A stretch of DNA of 47,988 nt from a virus. Each line of letters starts with the position of its first letter. The first letter of the stretch is position 1. A program made the position numbers and the translations under genes. Positions 5,174-13,125 of the stretch are shown one piece after another. The stretch is taken from IMG/VR virus record IMGVR_UViG_3300028596_000021, positions 1-47,988 of that record, one strand, 5' to 3'. The notes below the pieces were generated by a model that worked only from the letters and a program-made list of their open reading frames with translations, searched no databases and was not told where the DNA came from.

Positions 5174-6964
5174 GTGGCGGACCAGTTCGATTTCGTGTGC
5201 GAGGTGGTACAAGCCAGAACCGGCAAGGCGCTGGTGTCGGCCGGACACAACCGCATCAAGGCGTTGTGTCCGGCCCACCCGGACGACAAGCCGTCTCTGT
5301 CGCTTCGCAAGGACGAGGAGAAGGGGAAGATCTACGCCCGTTGCTTCGCCGGCTGCAGTTTCGACGACATCGTCGCGGCGCTGGACCTGACCGCTCGGGA
5401 CTTCCGGCTGAAGGGTGCTCCGAGCAGGAATGGACATGGGAAGAGTCCGGCTACTCGGCCGGAACGCACCTCGCGTTCGTCCAAAGACGACTCGGTGGGC
5501 GAAGAGGTCGAGCGATACGCCTACACCGACGAAGACGGGAAGGTTCTGTACTACAACATTCGGTTCGAACCGAAGGACTTCCGTCTCGCGGACAAGAACG
5601 GCAAACGGGCGAATCTACCCAAGAATATGCGTTGGGTACCCTACAACCTTCCGGCCGTGCTGGAAGCGATTGCCGAAGGCCGAACCGTCTACTGGGTGGA
5701 AGGTGAGCGCGACGTCAAGTCACTGAAATCTCGGGGCGAGGTAGGCACCACTAACGCGGGTGGGGGTAACCGGCCGCTGGACCCAGAATGGGCACAGTTG
5801 TTCGAAGGCGCGGACGTGGTCGTGGTTTGTGACCGAGATAAAACCGGACAAACGTACGGCCGAGCGGTCGCCCGCCTGCTAATTAACTCGGTGAACTCCA
5901 TTCGGCTAACTCAGTCTGCTACACCGCAGGTCAAGTCGGACGTAACCGATCACCTGAACGCCGGATACGAGCTGAACCAGCTAGAGCCGCTGCCGATGAG
6001 GTCAGTCCGGCGTACCCGCTGGTCAGTTGCGGCAATCATGGAGACCCAGCCTGAGCCGCTGCGGTGGGTTCTACCGGGCGTGATTCCGGAGGGGCTAACG
6101 CTGCTGGTCGGTGCTCCAAAGGTCGGCAAATCGTGGTGGAACATCAACCTGATGGCCGCGTTGGGGTCCGGTAGACCCAAGGACGTGTTCGACTGGGGGC
6201 AACCAATCGACCCCAGCCCGAACCTGTACCTGGCCTTGGAGGATCCGCACCGTCGTGTTTGGTCACGAATGCGGCAGGTCACGCGCGGTTTGCACTTCCC
6301 AGCTCACCTGGCCGGAGACGTCTGGCTTGATCTGGAGCAGATCGAAAAGGGCGGCAAGGACGAAATCGAGAAGTGGCTGGACACGCATCCGACGGCTCGG
6401 GTGGTACTGGTAGACGTGCTGGCTAAAGTACGGGGTGGGTCCGACGAGGCCTCGTCCGGAATGTACCAAGCCGATTACCAAGCGGTGTCGATCCTAAAAG
6501 AGATCGCGGACAGCTACGGGATCGGCGTGGTGGTCACGCACCACGACCGTAAGAAAACCAGCGAAGACTTCCTCGACATGGTTTCGGGTACTAAGGGCGT
6601 GACTGGCGCGGCCGACACAATCCTGTACCTGACTAGGGAACGAGGGTCTACCGCAGGGTTGTTGCGGGTGGAGTCGCGCGACGTCGAGGAATGTCAGTAC
6701 AAGATGGAGTTCGTCCGAGAGACCGGCCGTTGGCATATCGTGGCCAAGGAGGATCTCGGAACCGAACCGGACAAACCTCAAGTGGAACTGCTGGACGAGA
6801 TCGAGCGGCTACTATCGGCTCGGGGGTACGCCCGAGTCCAGGAGATGGCGGACATCTTGCACCGAGGCAGCCAGGAGATTCTGTCCGAGTGCAAAAAAGG
6901 CGAACAGCAAGGTTCTCTGATGAAGACCCGGGACGGGAGCTGGTGTGTCCCCGCTAAGAGATGA
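5174..6964 (+). CDS. Primase-helicase (TOPRIM plus RecA-like ATPase)
   Basis: 596 residues. The N-terminus has a primase-type zinc site, CPAHPDDKPSL (Cys32, His35) and CFAGC (Cys57, Cys61). A TOPRIM domain follows, with VYWVEGERD (Glu176) and VVVVCDRDKTG (Asp220, Asp222). The C-terminal half is a RepA/DnaB-like ATPase: Walker A GAPKVGKS (313-320), ALEDP, Walker B VVLVDVLAK and a VVVTHHDRK strand. A winged-helix-like tail ends the protein. It should prime and unwind DNA at the phage fork. The start is GTG, preceded by GGAACGGGG. It overlaps the polymerase gene by 20 bases. Confidence 0.88.
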   Translation: MADQFDFVCEVVQARTGKALVSAGHNRIKALCPAHPDDKPSLSLRKDEEKGKIYARCFAGCSFDDIVAALDLTARDFRLKGAPSRNGHGKSPATRPERTSRSSKDDSVGEEVERYAYTDEDGKVLYYNIRFEPKDFRLADKNGKRANLPKNMRWVPYNLPAVLEAIAEGRTVYWVEGERDVKSLKSRGEVGTTNAGGGNRPLDPEWAQLFEGADVVVVCDRDKTGQTYGRAVARLLINSVNSIRLTQSATPQVKSDVTDHLNAGYELNQLEPLPMRSVRRTRWSVAAIMETQPEPLRWVLPGVIPEGLTLLVGAPKVGKSWWNINLMAALGSGRPKDVFDWGQPIDPSPNLYLALEDPHRRVWSRMRQVTRGLHFPAHLAGDVWLDLEQIEKGGKDEIEKWLDTHPTARVVLVDVLAKVRGGSDEASSGMYQADYQAVSILKEIADSYGIGVVVTHHDRKKTSEDFLDMVSGTKGVTGAADTILYLTRERGSTAGLLRVESRDVEECQYKMEFVRETGRWHIVAKEDLGTEPDKPQVELLDEIERLLSARGYARVQEMADILHRGSQEILSECKKGEQQGSLMKTRDGSWCVPAKR

Positions 6965-9050
6965 CCTGTTGCCCTCGCAGTTGCCGGACCCGTCCGACAT
7001 TCCCGGCACCGTGTTCCTGGACTGGGAGACGTCCGGACTGTACCCAGACGACGGTGCACGAATCGCGTCGGCTGGAGTGGCCTTCCGGTTTCGGGGCGAG
7101 GTGGTCTCGTTCGCTTGGCCGTTCAACCAGGGGCTGTACGGTAAGCCCGAGATCGAGACCGCCCGGTTCGGCTGGGAAGAGGGCCGGGAGATCACGGGGT
7201 ACTATGTGAACGACAGCCCCAAAACCGGGGCCAAGAAGGGTGATCCTAAGTACCGCAACACAAAACGGAAGCTGACGGCCGAGGAGGTCCTGCCCCCTAA
7301 TCCGAATCTAGGTCCGACCGAGTGGAACGCGCTCACCGCGTGGCTCCTAGAGAACGACATCGCCGCCCACAACCTGATGTTCGAGATTGTCATGGCTGGG
7401 TACGGAGTCAATCCGGAGATGCCAGGTGTCGACTTGATGCCGAACGGGGTGTGGTGCACCTTCCTAGGGAATCACCTGCTGGATCCGCAGCACAAGAAGG
7501 GGCTTAAGGAAACTGCCGACCGTCTGTACGGCGAGGCTCCGGACGAACAGAAGGTGCTTACCGACCACCTGAAAGAGCGCGGGGTGCCGGCGAAGCGGTA
7601 CGACTTGGCGGACTGGGACGTCATCAAGCCTTATTTGCTCGGGGACGTCCGGAAGGGTATCCGGTTGGCCTTGCATCAGTACCTGCGGTTCCGGGGACAC
7701 GAGGCTCGGATGGCACGGATGCACGAGCACATCCGAGAGCTGGATTGTTTCGTCCGACAGGAGCGGCGAGGTGTCCCGTACAACGCGACAGAGTCGCTGC
7801 GATGGGCCGACAAGATCGACGCGGCGGCTGACGAGCTGGAAAAGCAGATTCCGTTCCGAACCACCAACCCCGGGGCGGTGCAGTTCTATTTCACTAAGGA
7901 CGTGCTGGAGGACGGTACCCATTGTTTGGGGCTAAAACCGGTCAAGATGACCGCCCCGTCCAAAACCGCCCCCCTGGGAAACCCCAGTCTGGACGCTGAG
8001 GTGTTGGAGCAGCTGGATCAGCGGGACGTCCCGCACGCTCGCAAGTTCTACCGACTGCGTCAACTGAAGGACGCGAACGGGCGGTATTACCGGGGCTATG
8101 CTGAAGCTCTCGGGCCGGACGGACGGCTCCGGACGCGGTTCCGCCAGGTGGGCACCGCTACTGGACGAGCCTCCTGCGAACGCACGAACATGATGGCGAT
8201 TCCGCATGACCACCGGATGCTGGCGGCGGGGGCAGCGATCCTGCTGGAAGCTCCATCGCCGCGTGCGCTGATCGAGGCCCCGCCCGGATTCGAGCTGTGG
8301 CACATGGACTTGATGCAAGCCGAGCTTCGGGTGGCCACCCAATTCGCGCGGTGTGTCCGGATGTGGGAGACCATCGAACAAAACCGGGACCCGCACGGCG
8401 AAACCGCGATTGGTCTAGGTCTGGTGACCGGACCAGAGGACCCGGGGTGGTACAAGGGGCGGTCGGTGATCGGCAAGCGTTCGAACTTCAGCCTGATCTT
8501 CGGGGTGGGACATCGGACGTTCCGAGCGGACCTGCGCAAACAGTCCGGGCTGGATCTGGAGGTTCCGGACCACGTCTGTGTTACAGGGAAACGAGGGTGC
8601 ACTCGGCGAAACTGCAAGGTCAAGGAGCTGGTCGAGGCCTGGCACGAGCTGTACCCTGAGTTCCGTCCGACTATCGACACCTATATGAACGCGGCCGAGT
8701 ACGACCATCGGGTGTTGGTCCGGGGCGACCAGTGGCGTTATTTCACCGACGTGGAAATCGCCTATCACGACTTTCACAAAGCGTTCAACAACAAGGTCCA
8801 AGGCAATATCGGGATGTTCACCAAGCGGTGGATGGTCGAGGCGGATGATTTGCTGATGAGCCGGGGCATCCCGGACGACGCGGGGCTGTTGCTGCAGATT
8901 CATGACGCTTTGCTCGTCATGCTGCCGACCGGTATGCGGGACCTGGCTGAGGAATGCGCGGACATCGCGCGCCAGATGTGGACCGAGTGGTTCGAGATCC
9001 CAGGCGGGGTCGATGTCGAGCCGTGGAAGAAAGAGAGGGTAGCGGCGTGA
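6945..9050 (+). CDS. Family A DNA polymerase with 3'-5' exonuclease (DpoZ candidate)
   Basis: 701 residues. The N-terminal exonuclease has VFLDWETSG (Asp26, Glu28), HNLMFE (usually NxxFD; Glu147 replaces Asp) and YLLGD (Tyr230, Asp234). The polymerase domain has TATGRAS (about 404), motif A HMDLMQAELRVA (Asp455, Glu460), motif B GKRSNFSLIFG (Lys511, Phe515) and motif C LLQIHDALLV (Asp654). The Glu that normally follows Asp in motif C is Ala655. Its place directly ahead of purB and purZ makes it the likely polymerase for 2-aminoadenine DNA, by analogy with DpoZ polymerases found next to purZ in other siphoviruses; substrate preference cannot be read from the sequence. The start is GTG 6945 inside the primase end. 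Confidence 0.88.
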   Translation: MSPLRDDLLPSQLPDPSDIPGTVFLDWETSGLYPDDGARIASAGVAFRFRGEVVSFAWPFNQGLYGKPEIETARFGWEEGREITGYYVNDSPKTGAKKGDPKYRNTKRKLTAEEVLPPNPNLGPTEWNALTAWLLENDIAAHNLMFEIVMAGYGVNPEMPGVDLMPNGVWCTFLGNHLLDPQHKKGLKETADRLYGEAPDEQKVLTDHLKERGVPAKRYDLADWDVIKPYLLGDVRKGIRLALHQYLRFRGHEARMARMHEHIRELDCFVRQERRGVPYNATESLRWADKIDAAADELEKQIPFRTTNPGAVQFYFTKDVLEDGTHCLGLKPVKMTAPSKTAPLGNPSLDAEVLEQLDQRDVPHARKFYRLRQLKDANGRYYRGYAEALGPDGRLRTRFRQVGTATGRASCERTNMMAIPHDHRMLAAGAAILLEAPSPRALIEAPPGFELWHMDLMQAELRVATQFARCVRMWETIEQNRDPHGETAIGLGLVTGPEDPGWYKGRSVIGKRSNFSLIFGVGHRTFRADLRKQSGLDLEVPDHVCVTGKRGCTRRNCKVKELVEAWHELYPEFRPTIDTYMNAAEYDHRVLVRGDQWRYFTDVEIAYHDFHKAFNNKVQGNIGMFTKRWMVEADDLLMSRGIPDDAGLLLQIHDALLVMLPTGMRDLAEECADIARQMWTEWFEIPGGVDVEPWKKERVAA

Positions 9051-10231
9051 TCGAGCGGTATAAGGACAGGGCGATTCACGACGTCTGGAATCCGGCGACG
9101 ATCTACCGGCGGTGGCTGGAGGTGGAGATCGCTTACGTCCGGGAGATCGGCGGGGCGGAGGTGGCCGAGGCGCTGGAGAGCGTGAAGCCGCCGTCACCTG
9201 CTCAGGTCAACTACTACGAGCGCGAAACTGGCCACGACGTGGCCGCGTTCTTGGTGGCGTTGGACAAGAACGTTCAGGCCAAAGCCCGGAAAGGCGCGGG
9301 CGGAGATCTGCCGGACACGGTCTGGAATCGAGTCCGGTCCAGCCTGCACTTCAGGCTGACCAGTTCCGACGTGGTGGACACCGCTCTCGCATTGGGAGTC
9401 CTGCGTTCGCGGCTGGTTGTCGAGGACCGGGTGGCGAACCTGATGGGGGTGTTGGAGGCGTTCGCCAACTCGATCTCGGCGTGGGAGATCACACTCGGTC
9501 GTACCCACGGCCAGTTGGCCGCGCCGATGCCAGCCGACCACCGCTGGCGGGTTCTGGGCGAGATGCTGGACCGGGCCTGGACTCGGGCCGATGCTGGGTT
9601 CTTGTGGATGGACGTCGGAAAACTGTCTGGCCCGGTCGGGCTAGCCGATCCGAGCGAGGGACGCGCCTTGCAGAACCTCGGGTTGCGCGACACCACCGCG
9701 ACTCAGATCGTGCCGCGTGACCGACTGGCACATTGGGCACACTGCCTGGCGGAGTTGGCCACGGTGTGCGAGGCGATCGTGACTCAGGTGTGGCTGCTGG
9801 CACAAGCCGGGGTCGGCGAATTGCGGGTGGAGCCAAACGGCACGGTAGGTTCGTCCGCCATGCCGCACAAGGTGAACCCAGTGATCGCGGAGAATGTCCG
9901 GGGGCTCGCCCGAATGGCGAGGTCGCTGGCCGAGACGCTGCAACTCGGGATCGTTCAGTGGGGGGAGCACGACCTCGCCCACAGCTCCGTGGAGCGGGTG
10001 TCGGTGCCAGACTTACTCCACCTGGTGTGCACGATCGTGTCCCGCACGGCCACGCTGGTGTCCGGCGTGTCCTGGGTTGACCCGGGACGTCCGGCGGACT
10101 ATCGGGACAGTAGCGAGGACCTGCGGGCATTACAGGCCAGCGGACGGGCGTACGTCGACGCACACGCCGCGTTGACCGAGCTTTACCGCGACGGTAAGAT
10201 CAGCTACACCACTACCGAGGAGGGCCAGTAA
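9047..10231 (+). CDS. purB: Adenylosuccinate lyase
   Basis: 394 residues, slightly shorter than cellular PurB. Fumarase/aspartase superfamily motifs are all present: TGHDVAAF (61-68), LTSSDVVD (104-111), GRTHGQLAAPM (151-161) with the catalytic His, and the signature GSSAMPHKVNPVIAE (268-282) with the catalytic Ser loop. Cellular PurB removes fumarate from adenylosuccinate and SAICAR. Here it sits one base from a PurZ-type synthetase, so the likely substrate is the succino-2-amino-dAMP that PurZ makes, released as dZMP. Z phages described so far were reported to lean on host PurB, so a phage copy is unusual. GTG start at 9047 (GTGA overlap with the polymerase stop) with GAGAGGGT upstream. An internal promoter for purZ lies inside its 3' end. 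Confidence 0.9.
   Translation: MIERYKDRAIHDVWNPATIYRRWLEVEIAYVREIGGAEVAEALESVKPPSPAQVNYYERETGHDVAAFLVALDKNVQAKARKGAGGDLPDTVWNRVRSSLHFRLTSSDVVDTALALGVLRSRLVVEDRVANLMGVLEAFANSISAWEITLGRTHGQLAAPMPADHRWRVLGEMLDRAWTRADAGFLWMDVGKLSGPVGLADPSEGRALQNLGLRDTTATQIVPRDRLAHWAHCLAELATVCEAIVTQVWLLAQAGVGELRVEPNGTVGSSAMPHKVNPVIAENVRGLARMARSLAETLQLGIVQWGEHDLAHSSVERVSVPDLLHLVCTIVSRTATLVSGVSWVDPGRPADYRDSSEDLRALQASGRAYVDAHAALTELYRDGKISYTTTEEGQ
10183..10200 (+). promoter_or_regulatory. Dyad promoter-operator 3, inside purB
   Basis: TTACC-gcgac-GGTAAGAT, a perfect dyad within purB codons that end the protein. The -10 is TAAGAT at 10195-10200, without the TG extension. Transcription would start near 10207, giving purZ its own leader of about 24 bases with GAGGAGGG. 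It would let purZ and the genes behind it be expressed apart from the polymerase. Confidence 0.6.
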
Positions 10232-11292
10232 TGGCACGGAAGATTCAGGTGATCGTAGGAGGCCAGTTCGGGAGCGAGGGCAAAGGCCACTGCGCGGTCG
10301 AACTCGCCAGGCGCGAGGACGAGATGCTCGCGATCCGAACTGGTGGCCCAAACGCGGGACACACCGCGTACGGAGTCGCGGGTTTGGAGATCAAGGCCGC
10401 CACCCGGGAGTTCAAGCTCCGTCAGGTGCCGGTGGCGGCGGTGGCCAACCCCCGAGCTACCTGCGCGATCTCGGCCCGGTCGCTGGTCCAGTTGGACCTG
10501 GTCGAACGTGAGGCCAAGGAGACCGGCGTTCCGGTGTTGGTTATCGACCAGGCGGCTACGGTTCTGGAGTCGGCGCACATCACGGTCGAGGAGGCCGACG
10601 ATTCGTTGGCGTGGGGTTCTACCCGCAAGGGGATCGGAGCCGCCCGGATGGACCGGCTCCACCGGACCGCGCGCACCTGGGCCGACCTGGTGCCCTACTA
10701 CGACACCACCAAACTGGTCGAGGCGGACGTGGCGCGGCTGGCCCGCAACTTCCTGAACGGTGGGGCCACGGTCCAGATCGAGGCCGCCCAGGGGTACGGT
10801 CTGGGACTGCACACCGAGTTCTACCCGAAAACCACGTCGGCCGACTGCCGGGCGATCGACGCCTTGGCCGACGTCGGACTCTCGCCGTGGGAATTCTCGA
10901 ACACGGAACTGGAGATCTGGGTGGTGGTCCGACCGTACCCGATTCGAGTCGCGGGGGATTCCGGCCCACTGCGCAACGAAACCAGCTGGGAGGCGCTAGG
11001 TCTGCCGGCTGAGCGGACCACGGTCACGAACAAGGTCCGGCGCGTCGGGCTGTGGGACCCGACGCTGGTCGCCGAAGCGGTGCTGGCCAACGGCGTCCGC
11101 AACGTCAAGCTGTGGATGAACATGGCCGACCACCCGTACCCGTTCTTGTCCGGATTGACCTCGCTGGACGAGGTGTACGACAAGCGTTTCAAGGACGTCG
11201 AGGCGTGGTTGGAGCGGGTCGAGATCCAAACCGGTGCCAAGGTGGCCGCGCTGGGTACCGGACCGAACACCGCGATCTTCCTGGAGGACTGA
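10231..11292 (+). CDS. purZ: PurZ-type (2-amino-deoxy)adenylosuccinate synthetase
   Basis: 353 residues, close to phage PurZ and clearly shorter than cellular PurA (about 430). The P-loop reads GGQFGSEGKGH: Ser15 stands where PurA has its catalytic Asp (GDEGKG). As I recall, this change marks PurZ enzymes, which use dGMP rather than IMP. Other PurA features remain: GGPNAGHT with catalytic His44, GSTRKGIGAAR (129-139), and IEAAQG with Gln187. The enzyme would join aspartate to dGMP with ATP or dATP energy, forming the precursor that PurB cleaves to dZMP. The start overlaps the purB stop as TAATG and the stop overlaps the next gene as TGATG, so the three are translationally coupled. A standard PurA role is less likely given the Ser, the length and the context. 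Confidence 0.85.
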   Translation: MARKIQVIVGGQFGSEGKGHCAVELARREDEMLAIRTGGPNAGHTAYGVAGLEIKAATREFKLRQVPVAAVANPRATCAISARSLVQLDLVEREAKETGVPVLVIDQAATVLESAHITVEEADDSLAWGSTRKGIGAARMDRLHRTARTWADLVPYYDTTKLVEADVARLARNFLNGGATVQIEAAQGYGLGLHTEFYPKTTSADCRAIDALADVGLSPWEFSNTELEIWVVVRPYPIRVAGDSGPLRNETSWEALGLPAERTTVTNKVRRVGLWDPTLVAEAVLANGVRNVKLWMNMADHPYPFLSGLTSLDEVYDKRFKDVEAWLERVEIQTGAKVAALGTGPNTAIFLED

Positions 11293-11984
11293 TGGTCGAG
11301 TACACCAAGGGAGCTGCCGCTCTAGTCCCGGTGGTGCACAAGCAGAATTACGTTCCAGGGTCGATACCAGTAATCGGTGACCCGGGCGACTCAGAGTGTC
11401 TGCTGGCGCTACCCACTTCTCTGGACGGGAGCCACTCGGGTCCATGTTACACCCTTGCCACGAGAGTCGTGCGGGGGTTCGGGGACCTGTTCCCCTGTGC
11501 CACTCAGATAGGTCCCCATACGGTTTGTGGGCACACCGCGAGGAGCCACGTCGAAGTGGATCGTGCGATTCCCTGCTCCAAGTGCGGATGCGGGGGTTGG
11601 ACCGAGCCTCCCGAGCTGCCGGACACACGCCAGGGGCAAGTCGGGTCGTCGGCCGCCGTGACGGACTGGATGGGGATGGGTCCGGACGCCGAGATCGAAT
11701 ACAACTCGGAAGGGGCGGGTCAGTCCAAGATCCCGGCTGTGTTCACCACGATGCCGCTGCGCGCACTGTGGGAACTGTCCAAGCTGCAGAAGCAGGGGGA
11801 CCAGAAGTACGGTGCTCACAACTGGCGCGGTATCGAGGACCACGACCACGTCAATCATGCGTTCGCCCACCTGATGGCGCATTGCCTGGGAGACAAAACA
11901 GACAGGCACCTGCTGCACGCGACCTGGCGGTTGATGGCCGCGTTGGAGCAGCGGCTGGGCGACGGACGAGAGGAAGAGCTATGA
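11292..11984 (+). CDS. DUF5664/MazZ-like dNTP pyrophosphohydrolase candidate
   Basis: 230 residues. The C-terminal part (about 145-225) resembles DUF5664, the dATP/dGTP diphosphohydrolase family related to MazG: LRALWELSKLQKQGDQKYGAHNW, then HAFAHLMAHCLGDKTD and HLLHATWRLMAALEQRL, all-alpha with regularly placed His, Glu and Asp. In Z phages the MazZ enzyme converts dGTP to dGMP, the PurZ substrate, and this gene's place right behind purZ fits that job. The N-terminal 130 residues have Cys pairs (CSKCGCGG near 100) and may form a zinc domain I do not recognise. Coupled to purZ by TGATG and to the next gene by ATGA. Confidence 0.6.
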   Translation: MVEYTKGAAALVPVVHKQNYVPGSIPVIGDPGDSECLLALPTSLDGSHSGPCYTLATRVVRGFGDLFPCATQIGPHTVCGHTARSHVEVDRAIPCSKCGCGGWTEPPELPDTRQGQVGSSAAVTDWMGMGPDAEIEYNSEGAGQSKIPAVFTTMPLRALWELSKLQKQGDQKYGAHNWRGIEDHDHVNHAFAHLMAHCLGDKTDRHLLHATWRLMAALEQRLGDGREEEL

Positions 11985-12250
11985 CCGCGCCGATTAGGCG
12001 TCGTGAGGACGTGATCAGCGACGTCCACACCCTGGCCGAGGAGATGGGGTTTCGTCGCGTTCGGGTGGACCGGTCCCAGTACGAGGACGGCCCCTACATC
12101 GAGGTCGGGTATGCGTCCGAGGAGGTCCACATCCGGACCTCGATCCCTGAGCTGCGGTACCGCAAGCAATGGGACGAGGTGGAGATGGACGACGTCATCG
12201 ACCTGATCGAGCGGCTGCTCGACTGGAACCCCGAGGAGGGGCCGCAGTGA
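11981..12250 (+). CDS. Small acidic hypothetical protein
   Basis: 89 residues with alternating strands and helices and many Glu and Asp (about residues 18-80). It starts in an ATGA overlap with GAGAGGAAGAG upstream and ends in a GTGA overlap with the NDT-dUTPase gene, so it belongs to the nucleotide operon. I do not recognise a family. A regulatory or accessory role in nucleotide metabolism is only a guess from position. Confidence 0.7.
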   Translation: MTAPIRRREDVISDVHTLAEEMGFRRVRVDRSQYEDGPYIEVGYASEEVHIRTSIPELRYRKQWDEVEMDDVIDLIERLLDWNPEEGPQ

Positions 12251-13125
12251 CTGCCTTCGTCTACTTCGCCCACCCGGTCGACTTCGCCGACACCAGGACC
12301 GTGGTGAACGAGATCGCCCGGCAGATCAAGAATGCCGAACTGGCGCTGTACGACCCCGAACTGGCCTGGACGCTCCCGCAGTCGGCAGAGCCGGTCGCCA
12401 CGTTGACCAACGTGAACCGGGCGGTACTGTCCCAGTGCGACGCGGTGATCGCCTACCTGCCTTCGGGTACCCGCACCGTCGGGGTGCCGCGCGAGATCGA
12501 GCAGGCCGTGGCCGAGGGCAAGCCACTGCTGATCGTCTCGGACGCGGACACGTTTCGCCACTCGTGGGCGCTTCCTCAGGAGGACGCGAACGTCCGGCAC
12601 GTCGATTCGTTCAGCCCCAACCAGCTGCCCGGGGGGCTGGGATGGCTCAACGGTCGAGTCCGGCACCTACGTGTTCAGCGCCACCGGACACCGCCCGCCC
12701 AGGCCATGTACGTTCGGCTCGACCCGGGAGCGGCGATCCCCACTCGGGCCTACCAGGGCGACGCGGGGTTCGACATGTACACGACCGAGGAAACGACCAT
12801 TCCGGCAGGTGGGTTCGTCGACGTGCCGGTTGGTATCGCGATCCAGTTCCCCGAGCGGGTGTGGGGGATGATCGTGGGTCGCTCCTCGACCGTGCGCAGG
12901 CTGGACCTGCTGGTGACCCCGGGGGTGATCGATACCGGGTACCGGGGGCCGCTGTACGCGGGGGTTCGGTCCCTGCGAAGCGACGACTACATCGTCAAGA
13001 AGGGTGAACGGCTGGCCCAGATCATTCCGTTCCCGAACGTGGCGATGGGTCTACACGCCACCCCGGTGGACGTCCTTTCTCCGACTGATCGGGGCGAGGC
13101 CGGGTTTGGGTCGTCCGGTGCGTAA
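12247..13125 (+). CDS. NDT-like / dUTPase fusion
   Basis: 292 residues in two domains. Residues 1-115 resemble nucleoside 2-deoxyribosyltransferases: a VYFAHPVDF strand, CDAVIAYLPSG, then GVPREIEQAVAEGKPLLIV with a Glu at the nucleophile position. Residues about 156-292 form a trimeric dUTPase with all five motifs: YQGDAGFDMY, GRSSTVRRL, GVIDTGYRGPLYAG, RLAQIIP and the C-terminal RGEAGFGSSG arm. The dUTPase half hydrolyses dUTP to dUMP and keeps uracil out of DNA. The first half might salvage or sense deoxynucleosides. The fusion closes the nucleotide operon and suggests tight control of dNTP pools. GTG start, GTGA overlap, GAGGAGG upstream. Confidence 0.85.
   Translation: MTAFVYFAHPVDFADTRTVVNEIARQIKNAELALYDPELAWTLPQSAEPVATLTNVNRAVLSQCDAVIAYLPSGTRTVGVPREIEQAVAEGKPLLIVSDADTFRHSWALPQEDANVRHVDSFSPNQLPGGLGWLNGRVRHLRVQRHRTPPAQAMYVRLDPGAAIPTRAYQGDAGFDMYTTEETTIPAGGFVDVPVGIAIQFPERVWGMIVGRSSTVRRLDLLVTPGVIDTGYRGPLYAGVRSLRSDDYIVKKGERLAQIIPFPNVAMGLHATPVDVLSPTDRGEAGFGSSGA

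Follow-up and report, generated by a model that had tools for sequence, protein, structure and literature searches.

A probable PurZ0-type Z-genome module with its own PurB-like lyase in an uncultured phage

In other phages with 2-aminoadenine (Z) genomes, the pathway from dSMP to dZMP is completed by host enzymes (PMC8342488). The clusters of S-2L, the vibriophages and Acinetobacter phage SH-Ab 15497 combine a dGMP-using synthase, carrying a P-loop Ser and an ATP-type pocket (Gln/Asn), with DatZ and either MazZ or DUF550, and no phage PurB is annotated in the regions examined. For the PurZ0 phages, activities of DutZ, DUF5664 and DmtZ have been published (PMC12884076). For example, the DUF5664 enzyme of Arthrobacter phage Wayne hydrolyses dATP, dUTP and dGTP, preferring dATP over dGTP about tenfold by kcat, and Tyr6, Asp12, Pro57, Asn77 and Glu103 of the Ghobes DmtZ have been studied by mutation (PMC12884076). 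In Wayne (Korravirus), a PolA-family polymerase with a Phe in helix O, purZ0, DUF5664, a small gene and a fused DmtZ-DutZ gene occur in this order, with an HNH gene between pol and purZ and no PurB found. Gordonia phages Ghobes, Frizzle, Sapo and Archimedes and the Streptomyces Hiyaavirus phages Hiyaa, Galactica, Keanu and Spocter, on the other hand, have both PurZ0 and a phage PurB, which lies 4-7.5 kb from purZ and keeps the Arg found at position 301 in Thermotoga maritima PurB; in those tested, the gene behind purZ has no Pfam DUF5664 match.

Gene content and order of the locus

The window, that is, the whole stretch of DNA analysed here (47,988 bases), is the entire length of one IMG/VR virus record, and its source phage is uncultured and known from a metagenome only. 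The features under study are as follows.

5174..6964, + strand: primase/helicase-like replication protein (PHROG 239 DNA primase/helicase, 3.2e-25; Pfam AAA_25, 3.3e-26)
6945..9050, + strand: PolA-family polymerase of the Wayne-like DpoZ (DpoZ-1) type, 701 aa (Pfam DNA_pol_A, 1.1e-28)
9047..10231, + strand: purB, adenylosuccinate lyase-like, GTG start, 394 aa (Pfam Lyase_1, 1.1e-20)
10231..11292, + strand: purZ, PurZ0 type, 353 aa (PF00709, 6.5e-30; PHROG 1211, "2-aminooxy adenylosuccinate synthetase", 2.3e-74)
11292..11984, + strand: DUF5664 / dATP-dGTP diphosphohydrolase-like protein, 230 aa (PF18909, 9.7e-15, above the curated cut-off)
11981..12250, + strand: small hypothetical protein, 89 aa, joined through ATGA to the preceding gene and through GTGA to the following one
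12247..13125, + strand: DmtZ-DutZ-type fusion, 292 aa (dUTPase, 6.9e-25; Nuc_deoxyrib_tr, 9.3e-6)

The primase/helicase-like gene overlaps the start of the polymerase gene by 20 bases, and the polymerase gene lies directly upstream of purB, its stop overlapping the GTG start of purB (GTGA, within GTGATC). The next two junctions are TAATGG between purB and purZ (TAATG overlap) and TGATGG between purZ and the DUF5664 gene (TGATG overlap), followed by two more coupled junctions, ATGACC at 11981 and GTGACT at 12247, and these overlapping junctions imply translational coupling across 6945-13125. A sequence-only reading of this DNA had described purB, a synthase of about 350 residues with a Ser in its P-loop and a DUF5664 gene, in this order, joined by TAATG and TGATG and placed behind a PolA gene, all of which the coordinates and E-values confirm; the overlaps and family matches likewise bear out its description of PurZ and PurB encoded by the phage in one coupled operon. 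Every gene of the module has a strong family match save the 89-aa one, for which none was found in Pfam or PHROG; a small gene also occupies the corresponding place in Wayne. The very small E-values, together with the repeat of purB-TAATG-purZ in a different virus (IMG/VR contig 3300014745_000003, about 65% protein identical for PurB and about 69% for PurZ), place the purB-purZ-DUF5664 string far beyond chance. The flanking genes are those of a tailed phage, with an exonuclease, a Sak4-like annealing protein and the primase/helicase upstream, and a terminase, portal, major head protein, tape measure and endolysin downstream. No tRNA was found in the window, and no close DNA relatives of it were found among phage records.

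Synthase, polymerase and nucleotide enzymes

The P-loop of the window PurZ reads GQFGSEGKG, in which Ser15 (codon AGC, 10273-10275) replaces Asp13 of PurA, as it does in 15 other phage PurZ/PurZ0 proteins of the alignment, and the protein also carries the PIRV motif. Its best PDB match is 7vf6 (5e-69), the sequence of which, as aligned, agrees with PurZ of Gordonia phage Archimedes, whereas S-2L PurZ is matched at 3.9e-23. The residue contacting the base of the NTP is Asp300 (NMAD, GTP-type), common to Wayne, Ghobes and Hiyaa, whereas this column holds Gln or Asn in S-2L, Vibrio J2 and SH-Ab 15497. The role of S-2L Gln308 in the NTP pocket has been described (PMC8342488), and the acidic Asp300, compared with this Gln and with Asn297 of phiVC8, makes for a guanine-type NTP pocket. 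In a quick tree built with archaeal PurA left out, the window PurZ is nested in a PurZ0 clade of 57 rows (SH-aLRT 97), outside which lie S-2L, Vibrio J2, SH-Ab and 14 cellular PurAs. The synthase is thus assigned to the PurZ0 (GTP-type) branch, and neither to PurA nor to the S-2L/phiVC8 branch; a place among the IMP-using PurA enzymes, which would have refuted the sequence-only reading, is not what the tree gives. It is under purifying selection (dN/dS about 0.29 between the window and its nearest relative). An ordinary PurA-like enzyme in a phage with a normal adenine genome would share the PF00709 fold, which is common to PurZ and PurA, but such an enzyme is hardly credible here, given Ser15 in place of Asp, the nested position in the PurZ0 clade and the DpoZ, DmtZ-DutZ and DUF5664 partner genes around the synthase.

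The window polymerase has 3'-5' exonuclease motifs, and its helix-O Tyr is changed to Phe (NFSLIFG), a mark common to DpoZ enzymes (PMC8599892). In a motif alignment comprising Wayne, Ghobes, Sapo, Archimedes, Cicada and Parvaparticeps, the same column is Tyr in three other actinophage polymerases serving as non-Z controls. By tblastn, its best phage matches are those of PurZ0 phages (30-34% identity over 96-99% of the length), the next being at about 22%. It is of note that Hiyaavirus polymerases (L001 and L006; Galactica and Hiyaa) retain the helix-O Tyr although both PurZ0 and PurB are present in these phages; not all PurZ0 phages, then, bear the Phe mark.

The third gene of the string had been read as MazZ-like and the cluster as a PurZ/MazZ-type one, neither of which holds. 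The gene product matches PF18909 and the gene takes the position of Wayne's PF18909 gene (3.5e-32), whereas neither MazG (PF03819) nor DUF550 (PF04447) was matched in the window, although for DUF550 no control genome gave a positive; MazZ was therefore rejected, as was DatZ, since PF12917 had no match in the window either. The DUF5664 domain covers only residues 148-222, the C-terminal part of the protein; the N-terminal 140 residues, which include a Cys-rich stretch, had no match. In tblastn searches with this protein, cyanophages came first (A-4L, Pf-WMP3 and relatives, 37-48% over the domain) and no Arthrobacter phage was matched, the similarity to the Wayne protein being only distant, which suggests that the gene may have been acquired separately from the DUF5664 gene of Arthrobacter PurZ0 phages. 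The fusion encoded at 12247-13125, which had been overlooked, joins a nucleoside deoxyribosyltransferase (NDT)-like to a dUTPase-like domain, is 37% identical over its full length to proteins of Arthrobacter PurZ0 phages, and retains the counterparts of all five tested DmtZ residues (Tyr6, Asp12, Pro57, Asn77 and Glu103 in Ghobes numbering).

The window set thus appears to be of the PurZ0/DutZ/DmtZ/DUF5664 type with PurB in addition. Like S-2L, the vibriophages and SH-Ab 15497, it has a dGMP-type synthase with a P-loop Ser, but Asp in place of Gln/Asn in the pocket and DutZ/DmtZ in place of DatZ and MazZ or DUF550; it shares the gene order of Wayne but has purB, and it differs from the tested Gordonia and Hiyaavirus phages in having a DUF5664 match behind purZ. 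By its gene set, the phage would belong to a known kind, the PurZ0 Z-phages. The PurZ0 synthase, the DmtZ-DutZ fusion and the DpoZ Tyr-to-Phe mark make it very likely that its genome contains Z, as had been proposed, and we consider it highly probable that the genes at 6945-13125 make up a full Z-genome module of the PurZ0 type, to which the phage has added a lyase dedicated to the pathway. In such a module, DUF5664 and DutZ would turn dATP into dAMP and dGTP into dGMP, PurZ0 would use GTP to couple dGMP to aspartate, giving N6-succino-2-amino-dAMP, the phage PurB would remove fumarate from this succino precursor to give dZMP, and host kinases would raise dZMP to dZTP, while DmtZ would destroy dAMP and salvage the Z base and the DpoZ-type polymerase would insert Z opposite T. 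These enzyme activities, the presence of Z in virion DNA and the use of phage rather than host PurB at the dSMP step are what we infer from the gene set; A would then be replaced by Z, and the phage would be independent of host PurB. Against the module reading, many PurZ0 phages have no PurB (it is absent from every Arthrobacter phage that was checked), and the DUF5664 protein resembles proteins of cyanophages more than those of the Arthrobacter DUF5664-1 group.

Linkage and ancestry of the phage lyase

Among credible phage genomes with annotation, PurB-like matches come from Hiyaavirus and from the Gordonia phages Ghobes, Frizzle, Sapo and Archimedes, each of which has PurZ0; in database annotation, some of these genes already carried the label "PurB-like". 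PurB records assigned to Listeria, Enterococcus, Staphylococcus and Pseudomonas "phages" were discounted, the four that were opened being unannotated UNVERIFIED records, and the PurB of Microcystis phage MaAM05, which falls among cellular PurBs in the tree, was not counted. Single-sequence scans of IMG/VR with the window PurZ or PurB gave no usable relatives, and alignments were needed; the alignment scan gave 273 PurZ relatives, of which the best 80 were kept, and 78 PurB loci. A clear PurB is present in 18 of 45 PurZ0 contigs selected for size (about 17-97 kb), a further match at E 3.6e-4 being left out, a fraction that is no population estimate because these contigs hold the PurZ0s closest to that of the window and one of them, L177, was reached via PurB. 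The PurZ0 match in L177 (G026), of 474 bits, came with a single TGA in frame; a 400-codon frame spans most of the gene, and the stop may sit only near its end.

The two genes are arranged in several ways. In the window, L019 and L021, purB precedes purZ with an overlap; in the L041 group, purB follows purZ after about 300 bases; and in eight contigs (L071, L114, L118, L124, L139, L147, L149 and L152) the genes are divergent and 38-137 bases apart, whereas in other contigs they lie 2-8.6 kb from each other. In L041, the space separating purZ from purB holds an open frame (KAKEYGSLDL) of about 100 codons, at about 6577-6880. L131 and L133, probably one sequence given their identical coordinates and scores, have a divergent PurZ-like gene outside the PurZ0 branch, with a PurB-like gene two bases on.

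In a PurB tree of 104 rows, obtained in a careful run with bootstrap values not fully settled, 38 viral PurBs form one clade (96/93) with no cellular member. All but one of these rows are labelled PurZ-linked, the label of L134 resting on a match that is cut short where the contig ends; the only row without any PurZ match is L156, on a 39-kb contig. The clade has its own signatures, namely a Pro in the SGAVG loop (41/43 rows vs 5/80 cellular) and a Gln after GRTHG (34/43 rows vs 0/80 cellular). Outside it lie a small group of Gly type and the PurBs of the eight divergently arranged pairs, which points either to repeated acquisition of PurB by phages or to uncertain deep branching. Most PurZ-linked PurBs thus appear to be one phage-specific lineage with active-site signatures of its own.

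PurB normally has a dual activity, acting on SAICAR and adenylosuccinate (PMC2917274), and some viral contigs have PurB with no PurZ on the contig, both of which would fit a general purine-supply enzyme raising host AMP (and AICAR), its nearness to purZ being incidental. We regard this as unlikely, since the PurZ-linked PurBs form their own clade with a single row of 38 lacking a PurZ match, purB adjoins purZ in three different arrangements, and the His change described below removes an Arg proposed to act on SAICAR (PMC6301967). The sequence-only reading had asked whether the lyase travels with purZ in other phages, and the 18 of 45 contigs and the 38-row clade show that in many it does. They indicate that a sizeable share of PurZ0 phages carry their own lyase, mostly of one recurrent lineage with an active-site signature; such a lyase would fill a gap in the Z pathway, may explain host independence, and is a candidate part for building Z-DNA in engineered cells. 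Compared with what open-access PMC papers describe, the present analysis would add a lineage of phage PurB that recurs, the physical coupling of its gene to purZ, and an active site that has been altered.

Active site of the lyase

The best PDB matches of the window PurB are adenylosuccinate lyases (1.9e-38), and its AlphaFold model (pLDDT 85.8) is best matched by PurB structures, with a TM (query) of 0.80-0.84 for the top four. It retains the lyase residues H63, H101, T105-S107, H154, Q220, S269/S270, K275, N277 and E282, of which H63, H154, S269/S270, K275 and E282 are the equivalents of His68, His141, Ser262/263, Lys268 and Glu275. The domain ADSL_C (PF10397) had no match in the protein, and the C-terminal tail has 50 residues vs a cellular median of 94; short PurBs recur, in the window, L019, L021, L115, the L041 group and the Gordonia phages.

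His308 of the window PurB (codon CAC, 9968-9970) aligns with Arg301 of T. maritima, and would correspond to human Arg329 if the ungapped match to 4ffx and 5nx8 and a 3-residue tag hold. Arg occupies this position in all 80 cellular PurBs of the alignment, and His was seen nowhere but in the window, in L019, which is related to it, and in the L041 group, the PurB of contig 3300014745_000003 being among those with His. Across IMG/VR, the WxEHD DNA pattern matched only contigs of the window/L019 and L041 groups, and PurZ adjoins every His-type PurB whose locus is not truncated by the contig end or by the limit of the fetched sequence. A private sequence error in the window was rejected, as the His recurs in L019 and the L041 group. 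Since L021, which has Arg, is sister to the window pair (100/100), the change maps twice on the tree, and the PurZ tree likewise separates the two His groups. A single origin is not rejected by the AU test (p 0.18); two origins by convergence are favoured, though not proven.

Mutants of Arg301 in Bacillus subtilis lose most of their activity, which, with the loss of an Arg present in 80/80 cellular PurBs, could point to a decayed or non-catalytic window PurB, perhaps a scaffold, with host PurB performing the step. The missing ADSL_C points the same way, because domain 3 of human ADSL supplies Arg396 and other residues to the active site (PMC6301967). We nevertheless find decay very unlikely, as purifying selection acts on PurB (dN/dS about 0.27 for the window paired with its nearest relative, and 0.07-0.11 among members of the L041 group), the remaining catalytic residues that were tested are retained, the same His occurs in a distant purZ-linked group, and the PurBs of Gordonia phages are also short but keep Arg. 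With the active-site Arg lost and no ADSL_C recognisable, the activity of the window PurB may still be low or altered.

A specialisation of the phage lyase in its substrate is plausible on these sequence grounds. Arg329 has been proposed to stabilise O6 of SAICAR, which it cannot do for SAMP (PMC6301967), so its loss is in keeping with an enzyme that no longer has to act on SAICAR, and as the position would lie near the N1/C2 edge of the purine, the change could make room for a 2-amino group. It is conceivable, if somewhat short of probable, that the PurZ0-branch Z-phages own a specialised lyase lineage, "PurB-Z", for the step from dSMP to dZMP, in which two purZ-coupled lines swapped the pocket Arg for His, trading activity on SAICAR/SAMP for a 2-amino deoxy substrate. 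The Arg-to-His change leads to a concrete and testable prediction on lyase adaptation to a 2-amino purine. In the small PurB group of L022, L171, L175 and L219, Gly replaces Arg at position 301 (EGD motif), and one member of the group, L022, is found close to a PurZ0 that belongs to the same subclade as that of the window.
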